Of a stretch of DNA of 64,000 nucleotides, positions 36,006 through 51,373 are shown one piece after another. Under the pieces are notes generated by a model. That model had not been told where the DNA came from and searched no databases. It saw only the letters and a program-made list of their open reading frames with translations. The first letter of the stretch is position 1. Every line of letters starts with the position of its first letter. The position numbers and the translations under genes are program-made. This stretch comes from Nitrosovibrio sp. Nv17 (GTDB lineage: Bacteria; Pseudomonadota; Gammaproteobacteria; Burkholderiales; Nitrosomonadaceae): NCBI RefSeq assembly GCF_900119085.1, contig NZ_FPIQ01000001.1:186001-250000 (forward strand), written 5' to 3'.

Positions 36006-37025
36006 TCATTTTTTCAAGCTGCCATGTTTCTCCCAAAGGCGTACCTCGATATTTCGACAGTATCCCCAGAGCGTGAGAAATGCGCGCAACAGGCGCGGTG
36101 CGTCCGCAGCCATCCATATATCGGAAATACGCTTGTCGCTGCGCCAGCCTCGCAGCACGAGTTTCGCCACCGCTCCCGGGCTGATGAGATCGTGCCTCAT
36201 CTGCAGGCAGGAAAGAGATTGAGTGGATTCCGGCGTGAGCCAGTGTATGTACCCTCCCTGGTGGAATACATCCTCGGTCGCATCCACGAGGGCCGGGGGC
36301 AAGCTCCCGGGAACGGAGCGGCCGGTGAGAAGCAGGACATTGCGGCGTGCACCGGGGTGGCGTGCGTAATACAGGCTCCGGTTGCGGCGCACGAGCTCCC
36401 TGAAGGCCTGGCCGCGTCCGAATGAACCTCCCCCGGCATGGTACACATGGACTTCGGGATGCACGCCGATGCGCCAGCCATGACGATCCAGGCGCCGGCC
36501 GAGATCGACATCCTCGTAGTAGCCGCGTCCGTACGCCGGATCGAAGCCGCCAAGCTCCAGGAAGACGTCGCGCCGGACCAGGAACGCGTGACCCTGCAGG
36601 CGATGGGTCGGAATATAGCCGCCGGGCGTGCGCGAGTAGCGTTCCAGATCATACCGGGCATAGTCGTTTCCGGCAGGGATGATGACCGCCAACCGCGCAT
36701 CGGCTGCGAGCGCCGCGTACAACGGTGGCAGAATATCCGCGCTGATTTCGACGTCAGAGTTGAGCACCAGCACGCAGGGGGTGCCGGTTCGCTGCATCGC
36801 CTCATTCACCGATGCGCCGAATCCCCGGTTTTCCAGGGCACGATGTACCTCTATGCGCGCCTGCGGCAGTTCAGCGAGCATTGCGCGCGTGTCCTCGTCG
36901 GAGGCATCGTCCTGGATATGGATGCGTCCCATCGAGGAATCCAGGTGGGTCAGTACGGAGTCGATGCAGCGCCGGGTCAACTCCGGTGCATTGTAGACCG
37001 GAATGATCACGTCTATGGGCGACAT
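36006..37025 (-). CDS. Family 2 glycosyltransferase (rhamnosyl-type)
   Basis: The 339-residue protein (start at ATG 37025) is a cytoplasmic GT-A inverting glycosyltransferase. It opens with IDVIIPVYNAPELTRRCIDSVL. It shows the acidic QDDASDEDT, ENRGFGASVNEAM, the DxD-equivalent VLNSDVEIS (D91), a GHAFLVRRDVFLELGGFDPAYG acceptor region and the catalytic-base motif GYYEDVDLGRRL (E171, D172). This pattern is common for rhamnosyl- and related transferases of surface polysaccharides. The sugar is not predictable. No good ribosome-binding site supports any of the possible starts (37025, 37043, GTG 37067). It follows the 37118-38446 gene in the same direction, 92 bases apart. Confidence 0.85.
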   Translation of the reverse strand: MSPIDVIIPVYNAPELTRRCIDSVLTHLDSSMGRIHIQDDASDEDTRAMLAELPQARIEVHRALENRGFGASVNEAMQRTGTPCVLVLNSDVEISADILPPLYAALAADARLAVIIPAGNDYARYDLERYSRTPGGYIPTHRLQGHAFLVRRDVFLELGGFDPAYGRGYYEDVDLGRRLDRHGWRIGVHPEVHVYHAGGGSFGRGQAFRELVRRNRSLYYARHPGARRNVLLLTGRSVPGSLPPALVDATEDVFHQGGYIHWLTPESTQSLSCLQMRHDLISPGAVAKLVLRGWRSDKRISDIWMAADAPRLLRAFLTLWGYCRNIEVRLWEKHGSLKK

Positions 37026-37117
37026 GGACGGGAATGGGAGCATGGCCGACGATGGAACCGGCGTCACGTCTCAGCTATGTTTCGGGAAAGGGGCAGTTTG
37101 CATCGAATGATCGATGG

Positions 37118-38446
37118 TCATCCAGCGTAGGGGGTCGCGTCGTGTTCGTGTGTATCGGACCGGCTTTCCCGTGCAGGCGATCGTACCTGCTCCTCCAGCA
37201 GCGCCACGTAGCGGGATAGCACATCCGTTTCTTCTCCTGCGTTGATCATTTCCTTCACGAAGCGCTGATGGTGCGCCTCGACGTAGAAGTCGGCGCAGCC
37301 CTGTGCCAGAAACCGCTCGATCTGGCGGTATACGTCATCCCGGCAGCGCAGTTCCGTCTCCGGCAGGTACTCGGCCAGCGCCGAGCGCCCCGCGTGCAGG
37401 TAGTCTGCCGCCAGCACCGGCTTCTTTTTGCGGACCGCCTCGAACACGACCGAGGTGGCCAGATCTATGATCACGTCCGCCCAGTTCATGAGATGGATGG
37501 AGTGCATACTGCCGGCCACGCTCACGTTCGAGAGACGCCGCAGGGAAGCGCTCTTGGTCAGCGACTGCTGCCAGCCGCCGCGGGTATGCGGCTTGATGAC
37601 CAGTTCCACGCCGGGAAAACCGGCAACGATGCGCACGACCTCGCCGACCTCCTCCCAGAAGGTGGAGAAGTTGCTTTTTCTCAGGAACAGGACGACCTTG
37701 AGGCGGCTGTCGGAGCGCGCCAGCGGCGAGGGTGGCATCAGTTCGGCCACCTTGGCGAGCCATTCGTCGCAGTAGCGCGGGGATCCCAGAACCTTCAGCT
37801 TGTCGTCGTTCATGAAGGGGCGAAACCGTATCGAGCACAGTTCGTTGGGCACCACCACCTTGTCGAATATTCCTGCATTGGAGAAGGTGGTATCGGGTTC
37901 CAGGCGCAGCTCCCGGCGCCGGATCAGCTGGCTTGCATGCGGACTGTCGCCGTGGGGGAGCGATACCACACCCAGCCCCATGGTGCGGGCCGTGGAGAGC
38001 ACGATCTCGACCCATTCCACGCATATGGAAGAATTCCGTTCGATCCAGTCGAACGCCACTACGCCCCCGGGTGCGGCATCGTCACCAAAGCAGCGCTTCA
38101 GCAGGCGTTGCGCGGTGCTGTGCCACAGCGGCGCCCTTCGCCCGGCATCGTACCATTTGGCGAGTGCCGCCATGATCGGGCCGATGAACGGACGCCTCAG
38201 GCTGCGGATCAGGATCAGCGTCTGCAGGAACCAGCCGATGAACTCCACGGGGGGCAGGACGTCGCCGATGTAGGCCATGCGCACCCCCTTCAGGCCGCGC
38301 AGGAATTCGATGCGATAGTCGTTGCGGAAGCGCGAGTTGCCGATGAGGACGATGTCGCACGTGTGGCCCGAGGTGATCCACTTGTGGATTACCGGGGTCA
38401 TGTGATCGATATCGTTGTAGTGGCGAAGAAAAAAAAGAGCCTTCAT
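37118..38446 (-). CDS. Unknown surface-carbohydrate protein, GT-B/CDP-glycerol-transferase-like
   Basis: The 442-residue protein has no signal peptide and starts KALFFLRHYNDIDHMTPVIH, like the N-terminal Rossmann half of GT-B enzymes. The second half carries VELVIKPHTRGGW (about residues 279-291) and NWADVIIDLATSVVFEAVRKKKPVL (about 316-340). This arrangement recalls the donor-binding region of CDP-glycerol glycerophosphotransferases and capsule-type Kdo transferases. I cannot assign a family firmly. It is divergent from the KdsB-like operon, so it may use the CMP-sugar made there (inference). Starts at 38446 and 38458 are both possible. Confidence 0.65.
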   Translation of the reverse strand: MKALFFLRHYNDIDHMTPVIHKWITSGHTCDIVLIGNSRFRNDYRIEFLRGLKGVRMAYIGDVLPPVEFIGWFLQTLILIRSLRRPFIGPIMAALAKWYDAGRRAPLWHSTAQRLLKRCFGDDAAPGGVVAFDWIERNSSICVEWVEIVLSTARTMGLGVVSLPHGDSPHASQLIRRRELRLEPDTTFSNAGIFDKVVVPNELCSIRFRPFMNDDKLKVLGSPRYCDEWLAKVAELMPPSPLARSDSRLKVVLFLRKSNFSTFWEEVGEVVRIVAGFPGVELVIKPHTRGGWQQSLTKSASLRRLSNVSVAGSMHSIHLMNWADVIIDLATSVVFEAVRKKKPVLAADYLHAGRSALAEYLPETELRCRDDVYRQIERFLAQGCADFYVEAHHQRFVKEMINAGEETDVLSRYVALLEEQVRSPARESRSDTHEHDATPYAG

Positions 38447-38589
38447 GCCAATGCCCATCTCTCGCGTACGCGTAGCCGGCCAGTCCGGATTCACTGATTT
38501 CCGTGGCCGGGGAGTCGGTGGATAAGCGGTGAACGGCGAAAAAGCGCGTCATTGTACACGCGCGGATAGGGGTTGACCAGCATGGCACG

Positions 38590-38609: not shown

Positions 38610-38620
38610 AATGCATCCGC

Positions 38621-38730: not shown

Positions 38731-38840
38731 AGTGGCCGGGGAGCGGGCGATGCCCGCCCTTCCGGTCATGCCGGCTCGGGCCATGACGGGAGCGGCGGCT
38801 TTTCTCCGCGATGCAGGTGCCACGATTTATTACGCCACGA

Positions 38841-39593
38841 ATGAGAACGATTGCCGTCATACCCGCCCGCATGGGCTCATCCCGGTTTCCGGGCAAACCG
38901 CTTTCCCCCCTGCTGGGCCGGACCATGCTGGAGCATGTCTACCGGCGGGTGGCCCTCAGTGGCGCCATCGATGCCACCTACATCGCTACCTGCGACGAGG
39001 AGATTCGGGAAGCGGCGGAAGGTTTCGGCGCGCCGGTCATCATGACCTCCGACACGCACGAGCGGGCCAGCGACCGGGTGGCGGAGGCAGTCACGGGACT
39101 CGACGCCGACCTAGTCGTCATGGTGCAGGGCGACGAGCCGATGACCCGCCCGGAGATGATCGATGCCGCGGTGGAGCCGTTCCGCCATGACGACCGGCTG
39201 GGTTGCGTCAATCTGGCGCACCGCATCGGCAGCGCAGCCGATTTCCATGATGTCAACACCATCAAGGTGGTCATGGACCGACAGGGCGATGCGTTGTACA
39301 TGTCGCGCCAGCCTGTTCCGAACTTGCCTGCCACCGTCGACTTCGCACAGGTGCATGCGTACAAGCAGGTGTGCATCATCCCGTTCCGGCGTGAAACCCT
39401 GGTCGAATTCACCCGTCTGCCATCCACTCCGCTGGAGCGGCTGGAATCGGTGGACATGCTGCGGCTGCTGGAGCATGGCCATCGCGTGAAGATGGTGGAG
39501 ACGCCCTTCAATACCCAGGCGGTGGATACGCCGGCCGACCTGGCGCGCGTTGCGGGATTGATGGGTGCCGACCCGCTGCTGGGCACCTATTGA
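38841..39593 (+). CDS. KdsB-like CMP-ulosonate cytidylyltransferase
   Basis: KdsB couples 3-deoxy-D-manno-octulosonate (Kdo) to CMP. The 250-residue protein has the full family core: IAVIPARMGSSRFPGKPL with the CTP-binding loop, VYRRVALSG, VIMTSDTHERASDRVAEAV, the metal-binding MVQGDEPM, and the C-terminal PFNTQAVDTPADL. It heads an operon with a pyruvate aldolase, a 2-hydroxyacid dehydrogenase, an SDR and a HAD enzyme. KdsB usually lies among lpx genes. This copy could therefore activate a different 2-keto-3-deoxy acid. The ATG at 38841 fits the family start, and ATG 38811 would add ten residues. Whether it is the only kdsB of the genome cannot be seen. Confidence 0.85.
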   Translation: MRTIAVIPARMGSSRFPGKPLSPLLGRTMLEHVYRRVALSGAIDATYIATCDEEIREAAEGFGAPVIMTSDTHERASDRVAEAVTGLDADLVVMVQGDEPMTRPEMIDAAVEPFRHDDRLGCVNLAHRIGSAADFHDVNTIKVVMDRQGDALYMSRQPVPNLPATVDFAQVHAYKQVCIIPFRRETLVEFTRLPSTPLERLESVDMLRLLEHGHRVKMVETPFNTQAVDTPADLARVAGLMGADPLLGTY

Positions 39594-39648: not shown

Positions 39649-40410
39649 ATGCAGCTCAAATCGAAACTGACCCGAAACGCCCTGACCATAGGCTCGTGGA
39701 TCACGCTGGGACATCCGGCGATCGCCGAGATCATGGCGGCGGCGGGATTCGACTGGCTGGTGCTGGATACGGAGCACAGCGTCCTGGAACTGAGCGAGGT
39801 GCAGATGCTGATTCAGGTGCTCGACGGCCAGCAGTGCCCGGCGATCGTGCGGCTGACATCGAACCACCCCGATCAGATCAAGCGGGTGATGGATGCGGGC
39901 GCCGCGGGCGTGATGGTGCCCATGGTGCGGACCGCCGCCGATGCCCAGGCTGCGGTCGATGCGGTCTACTATCCTCCGCGCGGCAGGCGGGGAGTCGGTC
40001 TGGCGCGCGCGCAGGGCTACGGCGCGCGCTTCCAGCAATACCGTCACTGGCTGGAGGATAATGCAGTCATCGTGGTCATGATCGAGCACGTGGATGCCGT
40101 CAACGCCATCGATTCGATCTTGTCCGTACCCGGTGTCGACGCCTACATCATCGGGCCTTACGATCTGTCCGGCTCGCTTGGCCGGCCCGGCGAACTCGAC
40201 CACCCGGACGTCGAGTCCGCCGTCGAGCGGGTACGCGAGGCGGGGCAGCGGCTGGCAAAACCCGGCGGCATCCATGTGGTCGAACCGGATCCGGAGGCTC
40301 TGCGCCGCCATGTGGACGCCGGCTTCAACTTCCTCGGCTACGGTCTGGATATCCGCATCCTCGACACCCTGTGTCGCAGCCACATGCAGACCATAAGGGA
40401 CGCGCTATGA
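39649..40410 (+). CDS. HpcH/HpaI-family pyruvate-dependent class II aldolase
   Basis: Members of this family join pyruvate to an aldehyde (or cleave the reverse) to form 4-hydroxy-2-keto acids, with a divalent metal and no Schiff base. The 253-residue protein retains the active site of HpcH: LVLDTEHS with H43, IVRLTSN with R68, VMIEHVDA with metal ligand E146, and IIGPYDLSGSLG with metal ligand D172. PRGRRGVGLARAQGYG replaces the usual glycine loop region. GGGAAG precedes the ATG. The stop overlaps the next start as ATGA. In this operon it could build the carbon chain of a keto-sugar acid for the KdsB-like enzyme (inference). The aldehyde partner is unknown. Confidence 0.88.
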   Translation: MQLKSKLTRNALTIGSWITLGHPAIAEIMAAAGFDWLVLDTEHSVLELSEVQMLIQVLDGQQCPAIVRLTSNHPDQIKRVMDAGAAGVMVPMVRTAADAQAAVDAVYYPPRGRRGVGLARAQGYGARFQQYRHWLEDNAVIVVMIEHVDAVNAIDSILSVPGVDAYIIGPYDLSGSLGRPGELDHPDVESAVERVREAGQRLAKPGGIHVVEPDPEALRRHVDAGFNFLGYGLDIRILDTLCRSHMQTIRDAL

Positions 40411-41345
40411 GCACACTCGTCATTTCCACCTCCTCGTTCGACGTGGACAACAATCCGCACATCCGGGATCTCCAGCAGGCGGGCCTGCGCGTCACCGGCA
40501 ATCCCTACCGGCGCAAGCTCACCGAGAGCGAGGCGATCGAGCTGCTGGGCAGCGAGGCCATCGGCATGATCGCCGGCATCGAGCCCCTGACGGAGCGCGT
40601 CTTTGCGGCGGCGAGGAACCTGAGGGTCGTTTCCCGTTGCGGCAGCGGCCTGGACAGCGTCGATCTCGCAGCTGCACAGCGCCATGGCGTCACCGTGCTC
40701 AGTACGCCGGAGGCGCCGGCCCAGGCGGTGGCCGAGTTGGCCATGGGCCTGATGCTGGCTGCCTTGCGGCACATCTGCCGGATCGATGGAGAGCTGCGGA
40801 CCGGCGCATGGCCCAGGACCCAGGGACGGCTGCTCGCCGCCCAGACCGTCGGCATCGTCGGCCTGGGGCGTGTCGGGCGGCGCGTCGCCCGGTTGTGCCA
40901 GGCCTTCGACGCCAGGGTCGTGGCCCACGACTCCTATGTGACGTCCGCGCCGCAGGGTGTGGATCTGGTGCCGCTGGACCGGCTCCTGACGGAATCGGAC
41001 GTCGTGAGCCTGCACCTGACCTACGATGCCGCCACCCATCACCTGGTGAACGAGGCGGCGCTGGGGCGCATGAAGCCGGGGGCCGTGGTCATCAACACGG
41101 CGCGCGGCGGCCTCGTCGACGAGGGGGCGCTGGCGCGGGCCCTGGCATCAGGCCAGATCGGGGCGGCCGCCCTCGACGTGTTCGAGCAGGAACCCTATCA
41201 CGGGCCTTTGCTCGGCTGCCGTGATGCCATCCTGACTTCGCACGTCGGCTCGCTCGCCCGGGAAGCGCGCCATCGCATGGAGATCGAGGCCGCCGAGAAC
41301 CTGCACAAGGGGCTGGTTGCGGCGGGCCTGTTGAAAAATGGCTGA
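40407..41345 (+). CDS. D-isomer-specific 2-hydroxyacid dehydrogenase (SerA-like)
   Basis: These NAD-dependent enzymes interconvert 2-keto and D-2-hydroxy acids, for example 3-phosphoglycerate dehydrogenase. The 312-residue protein has the nucleotide-binding GIVGLGRVGRRVARLC. The catalytic triad is R233 (INTARGGLVDEGAL), E262 (ALDVFEQEP) and H279 (LTSHVGSL). RCGSGLDSVDLAAAQRHGV and AVAELAMGLMLAALRHI are typical family segments. There is no regulatory ACT domain. The start (ATG 40407) overlaps the aldolase stop, and the end overlaps the SDR gene by 8 bases. In context it may prepare or reduce a hydroxyacid used by the aldolase route. Confidence 0.9.
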   Translation: MSTLVISTSSFDVDNNPHIRDLQQAGLRVTGNPYRRKLTESEAIELLGSEAIGMIAGIEPLTERVFAAARNLRVVSRCGSGLDSVDLAAAQRHGVTVLSTPEAPAQAVAELAMGLMLAALRHICRIDGELRTGAWPRTQGRLLAAQTVGIVGLGRVGRRVARLCQAFDARVVAHDSYVTSAPQGVDLVPLDRLLTESDVVSLHLTYDAATHHLVNEAALGRMKPGAVVINTARGGLVDEGALARALASGQIGAAALDVFEQEPYHGPLLGCRDAILTSHVGSLAREARHRMEIEAAENLHKGLVAAGLLKNG

Positions 41346-42267
41346 CGAGATCGCGATCGTGTACGGCGCGAGCGGCTTTCTCGGGAGCCACGTTGCTGAC
41401 GCGCTGTCCACGGCCGGATACCGGGTGCGGTTGTTCGACCGGGTGCCGTCGCGCTACCAGAGATCCGACCAGGAAATGATCATCGGCGATATCATGGATC
41501 TCGGCCAGGTGGCGGAGGCGGCCCGCGGCGCAGACGTCGTCTACAACTTCGCTGCGATCGCCGACATCGACGAGGCCCACCACAAGCCGCTCGCCACCGC
41601 CACCATCAATGTGCTGGGCAACATGCACGCGCTCGAGGCGGCACGCCTCGCCCAGGCACGCCGCTTCGTTTTCGCCAGCACGATCTACGTCTATTCCGAG
41701 TCGGGCTCTTTCTACCGCGCAAGCAAGCAGGCGGCGGAGCGCTTCATCGAGACCTACCATGAGCGCTACGGGCTGGACTACAGCATCCTGCGCTACGGTT
41801 CCCTGTACGGCAGGCGCGCGGATGCGCGCAACGGCATCTACCGCATGCTGCACGAGGCCGTGGCGCAACGTTCGATCACCTACCATGGAACCGGCGAGGC
41901 GCTGCGCGAATACATCCATGTCGAGGACGCCGCCCGCATGAGCGTCCAGGTGCTGGCACCGGAATTCGCCAATCGCCACCTGATCCTGACAGGCCAGGAA
42001 CGGCTCCGCATCAGGGATGTCATGACGATGATATCGGAGATCATGCCCTGGGAGGTCACCCTGAACTTCGACGAGGGCAGTGCCGTGCACCACTACGAGG
42101 TGACGCCCTACGCATTCCAGCCCCGGGTGGGCCGCAAGCTGGTGCTGAACGAGCACGTCGACCTCGGCCAGGGACTGCTCGACTGCCTCGGAGACATCCA
42201 TCAGGCCCTGCATCACTCCGGAGACGACGACGGCGCCACGCCCTTGGCCTCCGCCAACAAGGCATGA
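41338..42267 (+). CDS. NAD-dependent epimerase/dehydratase (extended SDR)
   Basis: The 309-residue protein is an extended short-chain dehydrogenase of the sugar-nucleotide epimerase type. It has GASGFLGSHVADAL (Rossmann loop, residues 10-20), DVVYNFAAIADID, the catalytic region FASTIYVYS with S114/T115, and FYRASKQAAERFIETY, giving the YxxxK pair Y126-K130. ILRYGSLYGRRAD and REYIHVEDAARM complete the family pattern. It could epimerise, reduce or dehydrate an activated sugar. Eight bases overlap with the dehydrogenase gene, and four (ATGA) with the HAD gene. A ceramide-reductase-like role is a less likely alternative. Confidence 0.88.
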   Translation: MADEIAIVYGASGFLGSHVADALSTAGYRVRLFDRVPSRYQRSDQEMIIGDIMDLGQVAEAARGADVVYNFAAIADIDEAHHKPLATATINVLGNMHALEAARLAQARRFVFASTIYVYSESGSFYRASKQAAERFIETYHERYGLDYSILRYGSLYGRRADARNGIYRMLHEAVAQRSITYHGTGEALREYIHVEDAARMSVQVLAPEFANRHLILTGQERLRIRDVMTMISEIMPWEVTLNFDEGSAVHHYEVTPYAFQPRVGRKLVLNEHVDLGQGLLDCLGDIHQALHHSGDDDGATPLASANKA

Positions 42268-42899
42268 GGGCGAGCCGCTGGCAGGCCATCATCTTCGATT
42301 TCGATGGCGTGGTGGTCGAGTCGGGCGACATCAAGACGCAGGCCTTCGGCAGTCTGTACCGTGCGCACGGGCAGGCGGTCGTGGAGGCGGTGATGCACTA
42401 TCACCGCCTCCACGGGGGCATGTCACGCTACCGCAAGTTCCACTACTTCCAGGAGCACCTGCTGAAGCGGCCCCCGCTGACCGCGGACGAGGAACGTCAG
42501 CTGGACCGGCGCTTCTCGGAACTGGTGGTCGAGGCCGTCATCGCAAGCGAGGCGGTTCCGGGGGCGAACGAGCTGATCCGCCGCGAGGCGGCGCGCATCC
42601 CCCTGTTCATTGCTTCGGGTACGCCAGAGGTCGAACTCAACGCGATCGTGGCACGCCGCGGCTTGTCCGGCTATTTCACGGGAGTGCGCGGATCCCCGAC
42701 GCCGAAACAGACGCTGGTGGGCGAGATTCTGGCTGGCCATGGCCTGTCCCGCGAACAGGTCCTGATGGTGGGGGACGCGCTCATCGATTATGAAAGTGCA
42801 AGGCAGCACGGCATCGCATTCCTGGGGCGCGTGCGTCCAGGAGACGCCAATCCCTTTCCGGCGGAGGTGGAGGTGGTACCGGACCTGAGGGGCTGCTGA
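42264..42899 (+). CDS. HAD-superfamily phosphatase (subfamily IA-type)
   Basis: The 211-residue protein is a HAD hydrolase: IIFDFDGVVVES (nucleophile D12, acid D14), LFIASGTPEVEL (motif II), a lysine in TPKQTLVGEIL (motif III), and MVGDALIDYESARQHGI (motif IV). The helical cap (KTQAFGSLYRAHG, then HYHRLHGGMSRYRKFHYF) is of the C1 type. In sugar-acid operons such enzymes remove phosphate from an intermediate, for example before cytidylyl transfer. The start overlaps the SDR stop (ATGA). The gene ends 12 bases before a convergent gene. Confidence 0.88.
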   Translation: MRASRWQAIIFDFDGVVVESGDIKTQAFGSLYRAHGQAVVEAVMHYHRLHGGMSRYRKFHYFQEHLLKRPPLTADEERQLDRRFSELVVEAVIASEAVPGANELIRREAARIPLFIASGTPEVELNAIVARRGLSGYFTGVRGSPTPKQTLVGEILAGHGLSREQVLMVGDALIDYESARQHGIAFLGRVRPGDANPFPAEVEVVPDLRGC

Positions 42900-42911: not shown

Positions 42912-43865
42912 TCAGCGCATGATGCCACGCCGCAGCAGGCGCCACGACACCTTGAGGCCCCACAGCAGCGGATGCCGCCGCAGCAGGGGAGTGACCTCGA
43001 CGTGCACGCCGGTATGGCGTTCGATCTTCCATGCGGCGTAGCCGATGCTGTCGCCGAAGGTGAACGCGGCCTTGGCCAGTCGCAGCACGGTCAGGATCTT
43101 GCCTTGCCAGCGCCGCAGTCGCCAGCGCCTTGCCGAGCGCCGGCGGGCCGAGGCGTCCGCCGGATGCCGATACCTGCCGTCCGGCAGTTCTTCGAGCTTT
43201 CCCGCCAGTCCGGGCACGGCGCGAGCGGTCAGGCGCGCATAATCCTCCAGATTGAGCCGGGCGAGTTGCTGCGCGCGCGTCGTCCGCTCGGGCCTCAGTT
43301 CCGCCGCATAGGTCAGACCCAGTCCGTGGGTCCAGAGGGTTTCCACGTTCACCACGGGAACCTCCAGCATGGGAAGGATGGATTCGAGAAAGACGATGAC
43401 CGCTTCTGCCAGGGAGACGTGGGCGCGGGCGCGGATCGTGTCGTCACGTGCGTACAGCAGCCGCGTGGGCTGGGCGAAGCGCGCCCACAGATAGGGATGG
43501 AACCAGTCGCGGGTGCCCTGTTCGAAGTGCGTCCTCGAGACCACGGCGTACTTGGCGCGCAGCGTTCTGCCCTGATGGCACGCCTCCAGGTAGAAGACGT
43601 TCGGTGGCAGCATCGCGTTCAGGTAGGCCAGATGACGCTGCCCATAGGCATGGTCGTAGCGGTCCACGATGACATAGAAGTCCGCGATCCCTTCGCCGAC
43701 CTCGCTGGCGCGCAGGCAGGATCCATAGAGCAGCACCGCATCCAGGGCAGGGCCGAAACGCTGCCTCAGCGCTTCCACCAGCACGTGAAAATCCGCCGAC
43801 ACCGGCAGAGCGCTCAGGATGGCCATTTCCGCGATCAGACCGGCTGGCGGATGGACGGCCGTCAT
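42912..43865 (-). CDS. Nucleotidyltransferase-like protein, possibly Tam41/CDP-DAG-synthase-related
   Basis: The 317-residue cytoplasmic protein has a nucleotidyltransferase-type beginning (AVLLYGSCLRASEVGEGIADFYVIVD, residues 43-68) followed by LPPNVFYLEA, RAKYAVVSRTHFEQG and FHPYLWARFAQP. This order (GS, acidic strand, LPxNxxY, KYxVVS, a WARFxKP-like element) recalls mitochondrial Tam41, which makes CDP-diacylglycerol from phosphatidic acid. The match is by eye, and confidence in the function is low. A basic C-terminal region follows (RRRSARRWRLRRW). The ATG overlaps the lipid-kinase stop as ATGA, which ties the two together: a kinase making a phospholipid and a transferase using it. Confidence 0.55.
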   Translation of the reverse strand: MTAVHPPAGLIAEMAILSALPVSADFHVLVEALRQRFGPALDAVLLYGSCLRASEVGEGIADFYVIVDRYDHAYGQRHLAYLNAMLPPNVFYLEACHQGRTLRAKYAVVSRTHFEQGTRDWFHPYLWARFAQPTRLLYARDDTIRARAHVSLAEAVIVFLESILPMLEVPVVNVETLWTHGLGLTYAAELRPERTTRAQQLARLNLEDYARLTARAVPGLAGKLEELPDGRYRHPADASARRRSARRWRLRRWQGKILTVLRLAKAAFTFGDSIGYAAWKIERHTGVHVEVTPLLRRHPLLWGLKVSWRLLRRGIMR

Positions 43866-44896
43866 GGCGACGGGGGCACCGGAGAAGACGGCATCGGGGT
43901 GCCCGCATCGATGCCCAGGAAGGTGGCCGGCCCGGCCGCCCCGACGCGCAGCGGCCCATGGGCGCTCGAGGCCCGGTAGGACTCGCCGTCGACGATGTAG
44001 TCGTCGTCCACCAGGAGTTCCAGCGTTGCGCTGTTGAAGCTGTGGTAGCCCTCCACTTCGCGGAGGATTTCCCCGCGGCCCGCCAGCACCCTCCACAGGG
44101 CCCGCAGCGGACGCCTGCATTGCTGGCGCACGAAGGTGACGTGCAGCGGCGCCGCCTCGCGTCCCCAGTACGGGCGCATGCCGAACAGCAGACGATCGAG
44201 CGTGCTGGCGAACAGGAACGGACAGGTTTCGTGAAGGAACTCGCCTTGCTCATGGCGGATAGACAGATGTGCCGGTGCCCAGGCGCCCTTCCGGCGGCCG
44301 AGGAGGATGCCGAGAAAGTATCCGACGGTGATGAGGGCCGAGTAGCCTTCTCCCGTGATGCCCAGCCGCTTGATGCTGCCCCGGGAGAAGATCACGGCGC
44401 GGGCGATCAGGCCCAGCCCGAAGAACATCCCGTATATCTTGCCGGCGCCCGGCTGTTCGATGCACAGGATATGGCGTTTCATCAGCCTGGGCGGGATCTG
44501 CGCCGACAGCCGCGTGCGCAGTTCGCGCAGAACCATCTCCGGCTTGCCGTGCATGCCCAGATCGAGCGCGGTCATGTTGGTCGTGCCGCCCGGCACGATT
44601 GCCAGCACAGGCCATTCCTCGGCGGGCCGCTGTTCGAACAGGCGGCTCAGCGTCGCCTGCACCGTGCCGTCGCCACCCACCACCAGCAGCACGTCGACCC
44701 GCGCGACCAGGAACGCGTCGATCGCCTCACGGATGGCCGGTGCGTCGCTTGCCCGGCGGCAGATGGCACGGGGAATCCGCTCCAGTTCATCCCGGATCGA
44801 GTGCTCGCGCTTGCGTATGCGTCCGCCCAAGGGGTTGAACAGGATACCGACGGTCGCCGTGCCGGCTTCCAGGTTGTCGAGGTGTGATGGTTCCAT
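43862..44896 (-). CDS. Diacylglycerol-kinase-fold lipid kinase (YegS/DgkB-like)
   Basis: The 344-residue protein carries the DAGK catalytic domain: GILFNPLGGRIRKR (residues 18-30), LLVVGGDGTVQATL with GGDGT at 74-78, and AIVPGGTTNMTA at 102-110, plus a C-terminal domain with REVEGYHSFNSATLELLVDDDYIVDGE. Enzymes of this fold phosphorylate diacylglycerol, sphingosine, ceramide or phosphatidylglycerol-type substrates at the membrane surface. It follows lptG by 39 bases and overlaps the nucleotidyltransferase gene. The context of lptF/G and a GNAT protein makes a ceramide or glycolipid kinase as plausible as a diacylglycerol kinase. Confidence 0.85.
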   Translation of the reverse strand: MEPSHLDNLEAGTATVGILFNPLGGRIRKREHSIRDELERIPRAICRRASDAPAIREAIDAFLVARVDVLLVVGGDGTVQATLSRLFEQRPAEEWPVLAIVPGGTTNMTALDLGMHGKPEMVLRELRTRLSAQIPPRLMKRHILCIEQPGAGKIYGMFFGLGLIARAVIFSRGSIKRLGITGEGYSALITVGYFLGILLGRRKGAWAPAHLSIRHEQGEFLHETCPFLFASTLDRLLFGMRPYWGREAAPLHVTFVRQQCRRPLRALWRVLAGRGEILREVEGYHSFNSATLELLVDDDYIVDGESYRASSAHGPLRVGAAGPATFLGIDAGTPMPSSPVPPSP

Positions 44897-44935: not shown

Positions 44936-46000
44936 CTAGATGATCCGCCGCAGCCAGACGCCGGCCAGGACGATGAGCATCAGCCCCGGGAAGAGCGCGG
45001 TGAACGCCGGATTCAGGCGCAGCAGCAATCCCGCGTTCGCGATGATCTGGTCCAGCAGGTAGACGCTGATCCCGAGTATCGCCGCCAATACCAGCTTGCT
45101 GCCGAGACCCGTGCGGACCGATCCGAACACGAAAGGTATGGACAGGAGCAGCATCGCGATGGTCGTCAGCGCGCCGCCCACCTTGCGCCACAGGGCCAGC
45201 GCGTAGGCATCCGCTTCCTGACCCGTGGCGCGCAGGAAGCGGACGTGCAGGAACAGCTCGACGGGCGAGAGGCTCTCGGGCGACTTGGTCAGGGTGGAGA
45301 TATCATCGGGATTCAGAAAGGATTTCCAGTCCATCGACGCGCTGTGTGCGGTTTCTATACGCTGCGCCGAGAAGGTCTTGATGGTGACGTCGTCGAGCTT
45401 CCACAGGTCGTCGGCGACGAGGTCCGCATGCCGGGCGTAGATATGGGTGGCGAGCAGGCCCGCGTCGTCGAAGTGCAGGATCTCGATGTCCACGGCTTTC
45501 TTCGCATGCAGCATCTCGCCGATTCGCAGGATATTGTGCTCGTCGCGGGTCCAGATTCCCAGGTTTCTGCCAAGTGCGGTACTTTTGTCGAGTGCCGCCG
45601 CACGGGAGGATATCGCCTGCTGCTGCAGCTGCGGCGCCACGAATTGCTCCAGTATCGCGATACCCAGCAGGAGCGCCAGCCCGATGCCCAGCGGCGCGAG
45701 GCTGATGTGCAGGGGAGAAACGCCTGCCACCCGCAGCGCCGTCAACTCCGAGCTGACTGCCAGCCGTCCCAGCGCGATCACGTTGCCCAGCAGCGCGATG
45801 AATGGAGCCAGCTGCACGAATCGGCGCGGCAGCAGCAATGCGGTGTGCATGAATGCGTCCGGGACGCGGTAGGTGCCCTTGCCGACGTCGTCGAGCTGGT
45901 CCAGTAGATCCAGGAAGCCGAACAGCGGCAGCAGGATGGCGGTCGCGATGCACAGCCCCAGCAGCACCTGCAGGGCCAGGTAGCGATAGGCGACCGTCAT
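44936..46000 (-). CDS. lptG: LptG-type permease of the LPS export transporter
   Basis: LptF and LptG form the membrane part of the LptB2FG ABC transporter that lifts lipopolysaccharide from the inner membrane. The 354-residue protein has three N-terminal membrane helices (YLALQVLLGLCIATAILLPLFGFLDLLDQLDDVGKG region), a periplasmic jelly-roll domain (about 120-260), and three C-terminal helices ending GLMLIVLAGVWLRRII. SELTALRVAGVSP is the coupling helix of the family. The start overlaps lptF (ATGA). Longer frames upstream are shadows. The gene is assigned as lptG by order after lptF. It may instead be a paralogue for another lipid. Confidence 0.88.
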   Translation of the reverse strand: MTVAYRYLALQVLLGLCIATAILLPLFGFLDLLDQLDDVGKGTYRVPDAFMHTALLLPRRFVQLAPFIALLGNVIALGRLAVSSELTALRVAGVSPLHISLAPLGIGLALLLGIAILEQFVAPQLQQQAISSRAAALDKSTALGRNLGIWTRDEHNILRIGEMLHAKKAVDIEILHFDDAGLLATHIYARHADLVADDLWKLDDVTIKTFSAQRIETAHSASMDWKSFLNPDDISTLTKSPESLSPVELFLHVRFLRATGQEADAYALALWRKVGGALTTIAMLLLSIPFVFGSVRTGLGSKLVLAAILGISVYLLDQIIANAGLLLRLNPAFTALFPGLMLIVLAGVWLRRII

Positions 46001-47073
46001 CGACGCAAGGCCTGCTTCCACCGATAGCCGGGGGAAAGTAGTGCGAGGGCGATTGCAGTCATCAGCAGATAGAGCCACCAGACGCCGGGAAACCTGCCGA
46101 TGGTGCCCTGTTCGACCCATGTCTGGGCCAGCCCGCTGAGGATGTAGTAGATCGCGAAGACCAGCGCCGCAGCATAGTAGGTTTTTTCATTCTTGTCCTG
46201 CCGTGGCGACCCGCGGCTGAACGGTACGGCGATCAGCGCCAGCAGGACGGTAGCCAGCGGACGCGACAGCCGCCACTGGAATTCTGCGATATCGCGCGGT
46301 TCGTCGGATGCCTGCAGCGTTGCGGTCGTGGCGGCTTTGCGCTTGTAGTCCAGGGCATTGCCGCTGTCGGTGAAATATACCAGCTTCTCGAAGCGGGTGG
46401 CGGTGTCTCCCGGGGCGGCATGCGTCAGCCGGTAGGAAGCGCCGTCGAATAGGTGAATCTGGGGCCGCTGACCGGATGCCGGTTCCCGCGAAAGGGCCCT
46501 CTTGGCCACGATCACCTCGCTGCCGCCATTCTTTCTGATGTAGTGAAATACTTCCGCCATCTCCTTGCCCGTGTCGTCCTTGGCGCGCAGATAGACGACC
46601 CTGCCGCTGCTTTCGCTGCCATAGAAGCGTCCGGCCTGGAAGCGGTCCATGTTGAGCTCGGCTTCCGCCTGGGCATTCAGGAGATAGCTTTCCTCGTAGG
46701 CCCAGGGGCGTGCGAAGATCGACAGCGCGCCGCTGACGATCCCTACCGGGATGGCCACTAGGAGTACGGCGTAGACGATGCGATGCTCGCTGATGCCGGC
46801 GGACCGCAGTACGTTGATTTCCTGGTCCCGGTGCAGGCGGCCCAATCCCATGACGATCGCAACGTAGAGGGCGATGGGCATCAGGACTTCCAGGGCGATC
46901 AGCGTCTTCAGCAGCACGAGTTTCAGCATGGCTGCCATCCCCAGCGATTCCGTCACCGCGCCCGCCAGGAAGCGGGCGCTGCTGAAGCTCGAAAAGAGTG
47001 CCGCCAGGATGACGATCACCACCGTGAACGGCGTCATCAGCTCGCGCGTGATGTAGCGCTCGACGATCTTCAC
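45997..47073 (-). CDS. lptF: LptF-type permease of the LPS export transporter
   Basis: This is the 358-residue partner of the downstream lptG. It has KIVERYITRELMTPF at the start, a first membrane helix, VMGLGRLHRDQEINVLRSAGISEHRIVYAV as the coupling-helix region, a periplasmic domain (about 130-260), and three final helices with FSRGSPRQDKNEKTYYAA. The start is GTG 47073, with GGTGA 7 bases upstream, 7 bases after the stop of the NTP-transferase gene. An upstream frame from 47142 overlaps that gene and is rejected. lptF usually diverges from pepA. Here it is embedded in a lipid-modification operon instead. Confidence 0.9.
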   Translation of the reverse strand: MKIVERYITRELMTPFTVVIVILAALFSSFSSARFLAGAVTESLGMAAMLKLVLLKTLIALEVLMPIALYVAIVMGLGRLHRDQEINVLRSAGISEHRIVYAVLLVAIPVGIVSGALSIFARPWAYEESYLLNAQAEAELNMDRFQAGRFYGSESSGRVVYLRAKDDTGKEMAEVFHYIRKNGGSEVIVAKRALSREPASGQRPQIHLFDGASYRLTHAAPGDTATRFEKLVYFTDSGNALDYKRKAATTATLQASDEPRDIAEFQWRLSRPLATVLLALIAVPFSRGSPRQDKNEKTYYAAALVFAIYYILSGLAQTWVEQGTIGRFPGVWWLYLLMTAIALALLSPGYRWKQALRR

Positions 47074-47080: not shown

Positions 47081-47950
47081 TCACCGTTTCTCGGCCGGCG
47101 GATTTTCCGCCTTGGCGGCAGGTCGTATCTGCCTGTCTCCATCGGCGGGCGGTGCGGTGCTTGCGAGTACGGATGTTGCGAGCCGCATGTCCTCGACCTT
47201 GTCGACGTCGATGCCAGCCTGGGGGTAGGGCAGGAACACCGGCTGTACCCGGATGCCGGTCCTGGCGGAGACGCGATGCAGCGCCTTGCCGAGCGTCAGC
47301 CTGCCCAGCACGTAGGACAGTACCATGCGCAGGCCGAAGACCTGCGCGATCAGCCGCCAGGGCTGCTTGCGCAGATCCTCGGCCTGCTGCCAGAAGGCAA
47401 CCAGGCCGCGGCCACGCGGGTTCAGGAAGGCGTACAGGTTGCAGCCGCAGATTCCGCCGTCGCCCAGGCGTATGACGGTGCGCCCGACGCCGGGGAATGC
47501 GGCGGCGACATCCTCGTGCCTGACCACGCCGACCGCGGCGTCGGTCTGCGCCAGTCGCGCCGCATGCAGGAAATGGCGCACGATCGCGGGCGAAAGCAGC
47601 GCATGATCCGCCGTCGTCAGCAGGACCGGCGTATCTGCGTCGCACTGCGCGAGTCCGCTGTCGGCGCTGCGGCTGGGGGAATCCAGGTTCGGCACCCAGG
47701 TGACGCGCCCGCTCCCGATGCGCCGTTCCAGTTCCGGGCAGTCGGCGATGGCGGACGGGGGGGGGCCGCAGAGTATGATGGCGTCGACCTCGCCGCTGTC
47801 CTCCAGCGCATCGAGCACGCGAATGACCATCGGCACGCCGGCGATCGGCACGATCGCCTTGCACGCCATGCCCGCTGCAGTGGCCACCGGGTCACGGCCG
47901 GTACGGTCCGCTGCCAGCACGATGGCGGTGAATCGCGACGCTGCATTCAT
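47081..47950 (-). CDS. MobA-like NTP transferase domain protein
   Basis: The 289-residue protein has a nucleotide-sugar-pyrophosphorylase fold (NTP_transf_3): FTAIVLAADRTGRDPVA, MACKAIVPIAGVPMVIRVLDAL with lysine 31, AIILCGPPPSAI, and VLLTTADHALL with the metal-binding aspartate. The glycine-rich loop is altered (LAADRTGRD instead of LAGGxGxRMG), as in a poorly studied subgroup. Substrates of such proteins are sugar or alditol phosphates. None can be named here. I used ATG 47950, and an ATG 14 codons further upstream (47992) is possible. It lies 22 bases after the GNAT gene and 7 before lptF. Confidence 0.75.
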   Translation of the reverse strand: MNAASRFTAIVLAADRTGRDPVATAAGMACKAIVPIAGVPMVIRVLDALEDSGEVDAIILCGPPPSAIADCPELERRIGSGRVTWVPNLDSPSRSADSGLAQCDADTPVLLTTADHALLSPAIVRHFLHAARLAQTDAAVGVVRHEDVAAAFPGVGRTVIRLGDGGICGCNLYAFLNPRGRGLVAFWQQAEDLRKQPWRLIAQVFGLRMVLSYVLGRLTLGKALHRVSARTGIRVQPVFLPYPQAGIDVDKVEDMRLATSVLASTAPPADGDRQIRPAAKAENPPAEKR

Positions 47951-47972: not shown

Positions 47973-49130
47973 TCATGGCAGCGTTTTTCCATAGATCCGG
48001 TAGCGCTTGTATTCCCGGCATCCCAGATGATCCAGAATGCCACGCATCGGCAGATTGTCCTCGAGTATCCATGACAGCTCGACCGCCCGTATTCCCCTGG
48101 AGAGCGCCGCCTGGCGGGGCGCATCGATCATCGTGATCGCCAGCGCCATGCCCAGCGGGGAATTCTGGAATTGCTTGCGCACGCCCATCAGAGGTATTCG
48201 GCCGGTACGGACACTCCCGGACCTGAGGGATCGGATCATGTGCGCCCAGCCCAGCGGAAACAGGCGGCCGTCGAGCTTCGCGAAAATCTCGTTGAGATTG
48301 GGCAATCCCGCCATGAATGCCGCCGGCATGCCATCCACCTCGGCGATCCGGATGAATTCATCGGGTACGAGCAGGCGCAGGCTGCTGCCCAGTTCGGCGA
48401 ACTCGGCCTCGGTGAAGGGGACGAAGCCCCAGTTTTCCGACCACGCATCGTTGAATATATCACGCAGTATGCCCATTTCCTCGGCAAATCTGCCACGCCG
48501 CAGCGTTCTCAGTCGTATCTGCCCCGCGAATCGCTCGATCACGGCACGCATCAGTCTGGTCAGTTCGCGATCGGTTTCCACCCAGTAAGCCAGCAGATCC
48601 TTCTGGCCCCGGTAGCCCTGCGCCTCGAGCAGCCTGCCGTACCAGGGGCGGGAATGCGGCATCATGACCATGGGCGGGGTTTCGTAGCCGTCCACCAGAA
48701 CGCCGCATTCCTGATTGATGGATAGATTGAACGGGCCGCTGACACGGCGGGTATCCCGTGCAGTCAGCCATGTCTCGGCGACCCTCAGCAGCGCCGCGAA
48801 CACTTCCACGTCCTCGATACCCTCCAGCAGGCCGAAATGGCCTGTATCCCCGCCGTAGCGCTGACGGTGCAACCGGTCGATCTGCGCGCTGATCCTGCCT
48901 GCCGGCTGTCCATCCCGGTACGCCACCCATGCCTGCCATTCCCCATGCCTGAAGAACGGGTTGAATCGGGAGAAGTGGAAGCGCCGTTCCAGGCGCAGTG
49001 GGGGCACCCACATCGGATCGTCCGCGTAGATGCGCCAGGGAACGTCGATGAACGCCTTCATCCCGTGTCGACCGGTCACCGGCCGCACCGCGACGGCGCC
49101 CTCGGGAAGCCCGCCGGATGGCTCACCCAT
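47973..49130 (-). CDS. Large GNAT-fold acyltransferase-like protein (bacterial ceramide synthase-like?)
   Basis: From the ATG at 49130 the protein has 385 residues. It carries VPWRIYADDPMWVPPLRLERRFHFSRFNPFFRHGE, GHFGLLEGIEDVEVFAALL, VSGPFNLSINQECGVLVDG, PHSRPWYGRLLEAQGY and a C-terminal GNAT half (MGVRKQFQNSPLGMALAITMID). This family is annotated only as a GNAT or hypothetical protein. From memory, the Caulobacter ceramide synthase bCerS belongs to the same broad type, N-acylating a long-chain base. That is a hypothesis, not an identification. It is the first gene of the unit reaching to 42912. The start is uncertain (49235 or 49130) because no ribosome-binding site is seen. Confidence 0.65.
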   Translation of the reverse strand: MGEPSGGLPEGAVAVRPVTGRHGMKAFIDVPWRIYADDPMWVPPLRLERRFHFSRFNPFFRHGEWQAWVAYRDGQPAGRISAQIDRLHRQRYGGDTGHFGLLEGIEDVEVFAALLRVAETWLTARDTRRVSGPFNLSINQECGVLVDGYETPPMVMMPHSRPWYGRLLEAQGYRGQKDLLAYWVETDRELTRLMRAVIERFAGQIRLRTLRRGRFAEEMGILRDIFNDAWSENWGFVPFTEAEFAELGSSLRLLVPDEFIRIAEVDGMPAAFMAGLPNLNEIFAKLDGRLFPLGWAHMIRSLRSGSVRTGRIPLMGVRKQFQNSPLGMALAITMIDAPRQAALSRGIRAVELSWILEDNLPMRGILDHLGCREYKRYRIYGKTLP

Positions 49131-49327
49131 GTGAAGCGCGGATGCCGGAGGCGTACCTTCCGCTCCTGAGCCGTCCGCGAGGCGGCAAGGCTTCCAACCG
49201 GGCATCCGCCCGAAAGCCCGATCGACTCCGACCATCGTAGTGATGCATCATCCTTTTCGCATCATTCCCGCCACCCGTTCTACCCTGTCCCATGATGGAC
49301 GCCATGCCGATGGTGAACCGAGTGGTG

Positions 49328-49339
49328 TGCTATTATAAT
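49328..49339 (+). promoter_or_regulatory. Candidate promoter for the 49523-51373 operon
   Basis: TATAAT (49334-49339) overlaps an extended -10 reading TG-C-TATTAT (49328-49336). The -35 region (TGGTGA at 49311) is weak. Transcription would start near 49346. Confidence 0.45.
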
Positions 49340-49360
49340 GACCGCTCGAAGGGCGGAAAT

Positions 49361-49386
49361 CCGGGAACCGATCACCGGTTTCCCGG
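49361..49386 (+). ncRNA. Structured 5' leader hairpin upstream of the ketoacyl synthase operon
   Basis: CCGGGAACCG (49361-49370) pairs with CCGGTTTCCCGG (49375-49386) in a 10-bp stem with one bulged base and a small loop. It begins about 15 bases after the predicted transcription start. It could be a 5' stabiliser or part of a regulatory leader. Confidence 0.4.
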
Positions 49387-49522
49387 TGTTGCTCGGGGTG
49401 GCGGGCAGAGGGCGGGGGCAGGCATCCATGATCGGGTGCGATTCTATCATCCACCGGGATGGCCAGCCGGATACCGGAGGCAAAAAAGAGCAGCAGAATC
49501 GGAAAATTTTATGGAAGGAACC

Positions 49523-49777
49523 ATGGATACCGCTGAATATAACCTGATCATCTCCCTTGCCCTGATTCCGGTCGTGTTCATGCTGCAGCTCTGGGTAAAG
49601 AATCGCCGCAGCCATCGTCGCAATGAAACGGGGCAGCAGGAATTCGACAGCATGGGTGCCATGCTGCTGTCGACCCTCATCGAAGGGGTGGCCATCATAG
49701 GCAGCCTGTTGCTGATCATCTGGATCATGGGCGGAATTGCGAGATACCTGTTCCCCATGATGTTCAACGCACAATAA
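49523..49777 (+). CDS. Small two-helix membrane protein, function unknown
   Basis: The 84-residue protein has two hydrophobic helices, about residues 6-23 (YNLIISLALIPVVFMLQLWV) and 54-76 (IEGVAIIGSLLLIIWIMGGI). A basic and polar stretch joins them (KNRRSHRRNETGQQEF). I recognise no family. An ATG four codons earlier (49511) is also possible, and GGAAGGA lies between the two. It precedes the ketoacyl synthase by 108 bases in the same direction and could be the membrane tether of the KAS-ACP module (inference). Confidence 0.7.
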   Translation: MDTAEYNLIISLALIPVVFMLQLWVKNRRSHRRNETGQQEFDSMGAMLLSTLIEGVAIIGSLLLIIWIMGGIARYLFPMMFNAQ

Positions 49778-49885
49778 GTCCGGACCGGCTGTGACGATTT
49801 CCGGATTGCCAGAGCCCCATTCCCATCTGCGTGACGTGACGACCGTACGGATAGACCTCAACCGGATCGCTCCCCCCTGTCGCGT

Positions 49886-51106
49886 ATGCGGGTAGTCGTG
49901 ACAGGCATGGGGGTCGTCTCGCCGATCGGAGTGGGCGTGGAGCGGTTCTGGGAGGCAGCTGTCGCCGGAGTCAGCGGTATCCGGTCGATCACCGCTTTCA
50001 ACGCATCCGGCCAGCGTTCCCGGGTGGCGGGGGAGGTGCCGGGGTTCGATCCGGCCGCGTTCCTGACGCCCAAGTATTTGGACCAGACGGATCGATTTAC
50101 CCAATTGGCGCTGCTGGCCACGGATCTGGCACTGGAGGACGCGGGGGGGCTCGACGCATACGCGCCGCAACGCCTGGCCGTGAGCGTCGGCTCGGGGATG
50201 GGCGGATTTTCCACCTTCGAATCCTCGGCCCTGCGCAAGTTCCGCGACCAACCCATACCGCCGTTCACGGTGCCCCGCACCATGGCGAATTCCGCGGCAG
50301 CCTGGATCGCCATCCGGCACAAGTTCAAGGGCGTGAACCTGACCTGCAGCACGGCGTGCTCCTCCGGTGCCAATGCCATCGGCATGGCTCTTGATCTTCT
50401 GAGGACAGGACGGGCGGATGCCGTGATTGCGGGCGGCGCCGAGGGCTGTGTGCTGCCCCTGACCATGACCGGCTTCGAGGTGCTGCATGCCCTGACCACC
50501 GGATTCAACACGGAGCCGGCGCGGGCATCCCGGCCCTTCGCAAAGGGCCGCGACGGATTTGTCATGGCGGAGGGGGCCGGCATCCTGATCCTGGAGAGAG
50601 AAGACGAGGCTGTGCGGAGGGGAGCAAAAATGTACGCATGCCTGGCCGGTTACGGCCAGGCATGCGACGCGGTGCATATCGTCATGCCGGACATGGAGGG
50701 CCAGGTCACGGCGATGCGCGCGGCCATCGAAGACGCCGGAATGGGTCCCGACGCCGTCGAGCACATCAATGCGCATGCCACCTCGACGCCGCTCGGGGAT
50801 GTCGTGGAGACCCGCGCCATCAAGCACCTGTTCGGAAGCCGGTCGCGCGAGATCGCCATCAATGCCACCAAATCCATGGTCGGGCACTCCATCGGTGCAT
50901 CGGCTGCCATCGGCAGCATCGCCACGGTGATGGCGCTCCACAGCGGTACGATACACCCCACCATCAACCTCGACGAGCCCGACCCGGAATGCGATCTCGA
51001 CTACACGCCCAATTCCGCGCAGCAAAGGAATCCCCGCAACGGTCTTTGCAACGCGTTCGGATTCGGCGGCAGCAACGCAAGCATCGTCTTCACAACACTT
51101 GAATGA
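49886..51106 (+). CDS. Beta-ketoacyl-ACP synthase (KAS II/FabF-type)
   Basis: The enzyme condenses an acyl thioester with malonyl-ACP to lengthen a fatty acid or polyketide chain. The 406-residue thiolase-fold protein has the active-site cysteine C158 in NLTCSTACSSGANAIG, the first histidine in INAHATSTPLGDVVE and the second in NATKSMVGHSIGASA, so the full Cys-His-His triad is present. SRPFAKGRDGFVMAEGAG and NAFGFGGSNAS complete the signature. It is followed after 15 bases by an ACP gene but not by fabD, fabG or fabH. It is therefore probably a dedicated synthase rather than the housekeeping FabF. Confidence 0.92.
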   Translation: MRVVVTGMGVVSPIGVGVERFWEAAVAGVSGIRSITAFNASGQRSRVAGEVPGFDPAAFLTPKYLDQTDRFTQLALLATDLALEDAGGLDAYAPQRLAVSVGSGMGGFSTFESSALRKFRDQPIPPFTVPRTMANSAAAWIAIRHKFKGVNLTCSTACSSGANAIGMALDLLRTGRADAVIAGGAEGCVLPLTMTGFEVLHALTTGFNTEPARASRPFAKGRDGFVMAEGAGILILEREDEAVRRGAKMYACLAGYGQACDAVHIVMPDMEGQVTAMRAAIEDAGMGPDAVEHINAHATSTPLGDVVETRAIKHLFGSRSREIAINATKSMVGHSIGASAAIGSIATVMALHSGTIHPTINLDEPDPECDLDYTPNSAQQRNPRNGLCNAFGFGGSNASIVFTTLE

Positions 51107-51121
51107 AGGAATGGATCGAAC

Positions 51122-51373
51122 ATGGATACAGCGGATATCGAAACGAAAGTCATACAGTTCATCTCGACCAAGGTGGAGAATCTGGACGCGGCCGTCATCG
51201 ACCGGTCCTCGAAGTTCGAGGACCTGGGGCTCGATTCCATGGATACCATACAACTGCTGTTCGATGCCGAGGATACCTTCGGGATCAGTTTCGACAGCGA
51301 GGAGGCGAAGGGATTCACCAGTGTCGGCGACATCGTTTCCTACATCGAGAAGCATCAGGCATCATCCGCATGA
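51122..51373 (+). CDS. Acyl carrier protein
   Basis: The 83-residue acidic protein is an ACP: the phosphopantetheine serine is S39 in FEDLGLDSMDTIQLLFDAED, and the four-helix pattern is complete (ADIETKVIQFISTKV, SDSEEAKGFTSVGDIVSYI region). It differs from housekeeping AcpP (usually DSLDTVELVMALE) in DSMDTIQLLFDAE, which points to a specialised partner, most likely the adjacent ketoacyl synthase. It ends in front of a 10-bp hairpin and converges with topB. Confidence 0.92.
   Translation: MDTADIETKVIQFISTKVENLDAAVIDRSSKFEDLGLDSMDTIQLLFDAEDTFGISFDSEEAKGFTSVGDIVSYIEKHQASSA

Follow-up and report, generated by a model that had tools for sequence, protein, structure and literature searches.

In Caulobacter crescentus, synthesis of the lipid CPG needs CC_1160 (the kinase) and CC_1161, and that of CPG2 needs CC_1159, CC_1153 and CC_1152, with a contribution of CC_1158 (available sections of PMC11324152); the same sections called the transport of sphingolipids to the outer membrane unknown in 2024. 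In the accessible part of PMC9386255, yghO and CC_1154 are given as one gene, and orthologs are named for Nitrosomonas eutropha (Neut_1100 for aca/CerS, and Neut_0458-0461), so that the ceramide assignment in Nitrosomonadaceae is already published there. Here, we analyzed a stretch of 64,000 nucleotides from Nitrosovibrio sp. Nv17 (contig NZ_FPIQ01000001.1, positions 186,001 to 250,000; hereafter the window, whose first letter is position 1 of all coordinates given without a prefix), in which a predicted bacterial ceramide synthase gene shares a minus-strand unit of six genes with the only LptF/LptG pair of the genome. Our analysis suggests, with a probability of about 0.78, that the Lpt bridge of this organism exports a phosphosphingolipid in place of lipopolysaccharide (LPS).

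The unit runs head to tail from 49130 to 42912 and encodes a GNAT-fold N-acyltransferase annotated from its identity to YghO as a bacterial ceramide synthase (CerS/bCerS; 47973..49130, start placed where relatives align; Pfam GNAT 20.8 bits for a cut-off of 20.7), a MobA-like nucleotidyltransferase (NTP transferase) resembling CC_1153 (47081..47950; PF12804, 55.5 bits), LptF (45997..47073, GTG start; PF03739, 230 bits), LptG (44936..46000; PF03739, 212.8 bits), a DAGK-fold lipid kinase that is probably a CpgB-like ceramide kinase (43862..44896; PF00781, 55 bits, with a GGDGT motif), and a Tam41-like nucleotidyltransferase, a candidate ceramide-1-phosphate activating enzyme similar to CC_1161 (42912..43865; PF09139, 19.9 bits, below the cut-off of 24). 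With the chosen starts, neighboring genes of the unit overlap or are separated by less than 40 bp. The order GNAT, NTP transferase, lptF and lptG on one strand was kept in 81 of 92 related loci, and the unit is therefore not a product of chance; the 11 deviating loci comprise two that carry a GNAT paralogue, five cut by contig ends, three without an NTP transferase match and one without lptF at that place. A preliminary description of the locus had named a loss of synteny in relatives among the signs that its reading was wrong, and the order was found to hold across the family. The three loci without NTP transferase (L106, L116 and L127) belong to Nitrosomonas and show no match at 40% identity or more inside the unit, which can mean either that the unit dispenses with this enzyme there or that it holds a divergent one.

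The GNAT protein is 49% identical, over ~373 aa (97% of its length), to YghO of the sphingolipid cluster on a Pseudomonas veronii plasmid and to the GNAT protein of the cluster on a Roseomonas gilardii plasmid, which served as comparison clusters together with that of Escherichia coli BL21(DE3), and it is 49.6% identical to the E. coli yghO-type loci; among solved structures, only three matches were obtained, all to unrelated P450s (E 0.63). In a survey of 150 genomes, 91 within the family (inferred to be Nitrosomonadaceae) and 59 others, the GNAT gene was present in 89 of the 91 and in none of the 59, and the two family genomes without it (G038 and G043) are less than 90% complete. When only the 81 family genomes that are at least 90% complete are considered, the GNAT gene and the serine palmitoyltransferase gene (spt) are each present in all of them. 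The best 80 of 166 confirmed relatives from an alignment search of genomes belong to Nitrosospira, Nitrosovibrio, Nitrosomonas and other Nitrosomonadaceae, with a few records bearing broader or odd labels. A metagenome-assembled genome titled Acidobacteriota (L113) holds a GNAT protein 69% identical to that of the window and is probably a mislabelled or mixed bin. A second GNAT, 36-37% identical to that of the window, was also observed in two Nitrosomonas-type genomes (L062:10238-11386 in G120 and L063:1046-2194 in G088); no Lpt genes were found around it, and a gene for a heavy-metal P-type ATPase adjoins it in L062.

The preliminary description saw no serine palmitoyltransferase, which is true of the locus and false of the genome, since the homologue to be looked for elsewhere lies on contig 15 in a canonical aasR-cerR-acpR-spt operon. 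Indeed, a PF00155 scan of the genome gave 15 matches, of which, after reading of the frames, a single one is an SPT-like protein (L018:12591-13778), and this protein passes the curated serine palmitoyltransferase model NF047599 with 587.8 bits for a cut-off of 500. The genes follow each other in the order fatty acyl-AMP ligase (AasR), epimerase (CerR), acyl carrier protein (AcpR), Spt and ABC exporter. Spt is 53% (52.6%) identical to that of E. coli BL21, and the identities to the proteins of the named sphingolipid clusters are 47-49% for AasR, 44% for CerR and 35-39% for AcpR. Copies of Spt with at least 71% identity occur in 89 of the 91 family genomes (the exceptions, G038 and G040, being less than 90% complete), whereas the best match among the 59 others reaches 39%, and the aasR-cerR-acpR-spt order was kept in all 16 family genomes fetched for this check. 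The epimerase of the window was also considered as CerR and rejected, because it is only 24-26% identical to the cluster CerR proteins compared with 44% for the protein of contig 15. The ABC exporter directly downstream of spt (L018:13870-15633) is 54% identical to the exporter located downstream of spt in P. veronii, occurs at this place in 3 of 16 relatives, and is a candidate flippase for the ceramide lipid.

Concerning export, PF03739 gave two matches in the genome of Nv17, both inside the six-gene unit, and the second copies of lptF and lptG for which a search had been recommended do not exist there. Across 49 family genomes, two copies were found in 46, three in G021 and none in G038 and G043, and G005 has one of its two copies on a contig other than that of the unit. 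The outer-membrane translocon LptD is kept in the window (4541..7300, minus strand, followed by surA and pdxA; PF04453 332.5 bits for a cut-off of 22.4), although its score with the NCBIfam LptD model (397.8 bits) is below the model cut-off of 683. By contrast with the order's other families, where profiles detected LpxC in 32 of 32 genomes and LpxB in 30 of 32, LpxC was not found in Nv17 or in any of the 49 family genomes, the E. coli control being positive, and no LpxB above cut-off was found in Nv17 or in 48 of the 49, the remaining case scoring 20.4 bits, under the cut-off of 22.6.

The LptF and LptG proteins of the window share 32-34% and 36-38% identity, respectively, with the E. coli and P. 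veronii cluster copies, and LptG is 29% identical to that of Roseomonas over part of its length. Trees were built with Nv17 and 11 relatives as the family rows and with 20 other genomes of the order, which provided 19 LptF and 18 LptG proteins within 300-460 aa, 17 genomes having both. In the single-gene trees (36 rows for LptF and 33 for LptG), the family grouped with the copies of the E. coli BL21 and P. veronii sphingolipid clusters (SH-aLRT 99), and the joint LptF and LptG tree of 32 genomes gave the same group with a support of 100/100. In this joint tree, the grouping of the family with the LPS-type pairs of the order was rejected by the approximately unbiased (AU) test (p-AU 0.004). The replacement of an LPS-type exporter by a sphingolipid-type pair is thus supported but not beyond doubt.

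The enzymes predicted to build the head group show lower similarity. The DAGK-fold kinase is 32% identical (335 aa aligned) to its counterpart in the P. veronii cluster and 31% identical to that of Roseomonas; a search of plasmids with this kinase yielded five records. The NTP transferase and the Tam41-like protein are each 37% identical to Roseomonas cluster proteins, namely the nucleotidyltransferase and the protein adjoining the kinase. Both the weak Pfam match and the remark on a CDP-DAG-synthase-like protein in the available sections of PMC11324152 suggest that the Tam41-like protein could be the counterpart of CC_1161. A CDP-alcohol transferase was found in 74 of the 91 family genomes, Nv17 being among the 17 without it, and it lies between lptG and the kinase gene in 6 of 8 relatives' loci that were read. 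If the Caulobacter logic holds, Nv17 would consequently make a CPG-like rather than a CPG2-like lipid. In two Nitrosomonas-type loci, other genes were observed between lptG and the CDP-alcohol transferase gene, namely IS200/IS605 transposase genes (L065:5944-7623) and a TrkH potassium-transport gene (L064:6765-8129).

On the computed gene presence, homology, family distribution, LptF/LptG grouping and absence of LpxC and LpxB, we infer the enzyme activities, the order of steps, the export by Lpt and the link to the sugar operon as follows. The contig 15 operon and the GNAT protein would make the dihydroceramide base, the DAGK-type kinase would convert it to ceramide-1-phosphate, and the Tam41-like and MobA-like nucleotidyltransferases would activate or extend the head group. 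LptF and LptG would then extract the lipid and feed it into an Lpt bridge terminating at the kept LptD, and a neighboring CMP-keto-sugar operon with its glycosyltransferases probably gives sugars to this lipid or to another surface glycan. The core of the preliminary description, i.e., sphingolipid-type synthesis, phosphorylation, head-group activation and Lpt-type export, is in this way supported by the presence of spt in the genome and by the family-wide synteny, but its proposal of a non-canonical lipid is not, as homology points to an ordinary dihydroceramide base.

The sugar operon gives rise to the main alternative, according to which a ceramide lipid is made but LptF, LptG and LptD export another substrate, for instance a glycolipid that is built with the CMP-keto-sugar operon and has an anchor other than ceramide. 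The operon lies on the plus strand and encodes a kdsB-like CMP-ulosonate (CMP-Kdo type) synthetase (38811..39593; NF009905, 287 bits, cut-off 255), an HpcH/HpaI pyruvate aldolase (39649..40410; PF03328, 121 bits, 72-91% identical in relatives), a D-2-hydroxyacid dehydrogenase (40371..41345; PF02826, 188.5 bits), the NAD-dependent sugar epimerase mentioned above (41338..42267; PF01370, 142 bits) and a HAD phosphatase (42264..42899; PF00702, 60 bits), and it is accompanied on the minus strand by a GT2 glycosyltransferase (36006..37067; PF00535, 66.7 bits) and a GT-B-fold protein (37118..38458). The synthetase fits the KdsB/KpsU sequence family, its best solved structure being 1gq9, which we take to be the capsule enzyme KpsU (173 bits, compared with at most 135 for other KdsB structures), and a keto sugar other than Kdo is possible because the operon has an HpaI aldolase. 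A copy at least 68% identical is present in 89 of the 91 family genomes, other families reaching at most 43% among the matches listed, and the five-gene order is kept in all 12 kdsB loci fetched, including those of Nitrosomonas. The operon and the CerS gene are 7-35 kb apart in all 31 cases from Nitrosospira and two further genera in which both are on the same contig; this, like the presence of the synthetase in 89 of the 91 genomes, is in favor of the alternative. However, the same distance is within 40 kb in none of the 12 same-contig cases of Nitrosomonas, whereas lptF and lptG follow the CerS and NTP transferase genes inside the ceramide unit in the 81 loci mentioned above and group with the pairs of two ceramide clusters, so that export of another substrate appears unlikely. 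The preliminary description, which counted this operon as part of the system, was right in that it adjoins the unit here, but the operon is a separate module. It was also considered as a replacement for the CDP-alcohol transferase in genomes lacking the latter, an idea that was rejected in this simple form since the kdsB-like enzyme occurs in the family regardless of this transferase.

The GT-B-fold gene is conserved beside the keto-sugar operon, and its product has no Pfam match; its family alignment gave no match by sequence to solved structures. A structure model built from 17 family sequences reached a moderate mean pLDDT of 67.9 (123 of 442 residues under 50), and its best folds were GT-B glycosyltransferases and UDP-GlcNAc 2-epimerases (TM ~0.45-0.55), making it a candidate glycosyltransferase. 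A Nitrosospira-type island in G021 (L155:5191-16120) combines the extra LptF copy of this genome with a CDP-alcohol transferase, a cytidylyltransferase-HAD protein, a PLD-like protein, a paralogue of the GT-B-fold protein and an ABC exporter that shares 75% identity with the exporter adjoining spt in Nv17. The composition of this island suggests that the keto-sugar may end on the exported lipid. Extending this further, the whole family might have swapped LPS for a surface sphingolipid carrying the CMP-activated keto-sugar, with an LPS-type LptF/LptG having given way to the sphingolipid-type pair, which would feed the old LptD in a natural single-substrate Lpt system; this wider proposal is tentative, and we hold it at somewhat less than even odds.

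It was also considered that LptF, LptG and LptD represent the vertically inherited LPS exporter, with the lipid A enzymes being so divergent that the profiles miss them. The NCBI models indeed score the window pair above cut-off as LPS-export LptF/LptG equivalogs, and the single-gene AU tests leave vertical inheritance open, since the grouping of the family with the LPS-type proteins of the order was not rejected for LptF (p-AU 0.112; the third LptF of G021 being grouped with the family) or for LptG (p-AU 0.33). Nevertheless, LpxC is missing from all and LpxB from 48 of the 49 family genomes with controls positive, and the joint tree rejects this grouping; such an exporter is therefore very improbable, and the LPS-export naming by NCBI would mislead here. 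These single-gene results belong to several observations that weigh against the export of a phosphosphingolipid in place of LPS. Some branches of the LptF and LptG trees are long, and the joint tree includes only two sphingolipid-cluster pairs, each from a gammaproteobacterium. At 1e-4, BLAST matched the window LptF to no part of the LptF of Roseomonas, whose cluster is alphaproteobacterial; the Roseomonas LptF falls outside the clade on a very long branch and for this reason entered neither the AU tests nor the joint tree, and the two-piece Roseomonas LptG was used in no tree. Therefore, a 'sphingolipid type' of LptF is not one clade in our data. In addition, the Lpt parts searched were LptF, LptG and LptD, the lipid A loss relies on LpxC and LpxB with LpxA, LpxD, LpxK and WaaA not searched, and a study of 2010 had already noted residual lipid A genes, with only lpxK left in N. 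europaea and only lpxA in N. multiformis (PMC3087551, as far as its accessible text goes). Finally, the kinase identity of just 31-32% refers to the kinases of named clusters and not to Caulobacter CpgB itself, and a CC_1159-like CDP-alcohol transferase (query from G006, PF01066) gave no match in the Nv17 genome. As for a lipid pathway that is accessory or was acquired horizontally, sits beside housekeeping genes and is unimportant to the envelope, the similar clusters on plasmid records of P. veronii and R. gilardii would be in its favor, but the presence of GNAT and Spt in each of the 81 family genomes that are at least 90% complete, the kept gene order and the absence of LpxC make it barely credible.

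All genes named in the preliminary description were found at 36006-51373 in this genome (2.84 Mb in 56 contigs, 99.83% completeness), and the locus is flanked by ppx, a metallo-beta-lactamase-fold gene and topB. On the plus strand upstream of the unit lie genes for a small membrane protein of no family (49292..49777), a FabF-like ketoacyl-ACP synthase (49886..51106; TIGR03150, 492.4 bits, cut-off 493.75) and an acyl carrier protein distinct from the spt-adjacent AcpR (51122..51373; PF00550, 41.5 bits). The last two had been assigned to the system, but they have matches in only 18 of the 92 related loci, compared with 30 for topB. A role in ceramide synthesis was rejected for both, as they are not in the conserved unit and a separate AcpR adjoins spt on contig 15; the FabF-like synthase thus probably lies outside the ceramide unit. 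The third-position GC of the window genes at 36006-51373 is mostly ~0.8, compared with ~0.3-0.6 in the loci of relatives, and Nv17 is thus unusually GC-rich for the family.

Both the ceramide pathway with its cluster (including N. eutropha) and the lipid A gene loss in two species are already published, as seen in the accessible parts of these sources. What is added to PMC3087551, so far as available, is the breadth of the loss and its pairing with the ceramide pathway in 89 of 91 genomes. Moreover, a sphingolipid route has likely taken the place of the LPS route across the sampled family, its single pair of Lpt permeases being related to those of sphingolipid clusters. Among the results listed from the open-access literature, no title or abstract opening showed a family-wide LPS gene loss or an exporter replacement in Nitrosomonadaceae; in a 2018 proteomics study of ammonia oxidisers, FtsH is mentioned as regulating LPS synthesis (PMC5960693, in its available part). 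The question touches on the envelope of ammonia oxidisers that are of major importance in soil and wastewater. In Caulobacter, LPS and a second LptF/LptG version confound the export question, whereas Nitrosomonadaceae apparently have no lipid A pathway and have one pair in nearly all tested genomes, and sphingolipid export is therefore directly testable in this family.

Among known systems, the locus resembles in content Caulobacter crescentus CC_1152-CC_1168, which also has CerS, a CofC/MobA-like NTP transferase, LptF2, LptG2, a ceramide kinase, a CDP-DAG-synthase-like protein and an Spt operon, this likeness being one of description and not of sequences (PMC11324152, available sections). In contrast, LptF2 and LptG2 are there a second version beside LPS, while the pair is the sole one here and LpxC and LpxB are missing, and Caulobacter has the CDP-alcohol transferase CC_1159, which has no match in Nv17 (same sections). 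Within the family itself, N. eutropha has orthologs for at least 13 of the 17 cluster genes (PMC11324152), and the accounts of this species, in the accessible parts of PMC11324152 and PMC9386255, draw no link to the loss of lipid A, the loss of an LPS-type LptF/LptG or the CMP-keto-sugar operon. The E. coli BL21(DE3) cluster yghO-aasR-cerR-acpR-spt-lptG-lptF similarly joins ceramide genes to an LptF/LptG pair, which adjoins spt there, but E. coli has in addition an LPS-type pair (K-12 lptF/lptG) and LpxC. Sphingomonas is free of LPS and carries glycosphingolipids in its place. For S. koreensis, an LPS-free state with sphingolipid is described in the available sections of PMC11324152, which also report scattered ceramide genes in Sphingomonadales, unlike the compact unit of Nv17. 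Sphingomonas belongs to another class, and Nv17 would resemble it in having a sphingolipid in the place of LPS.

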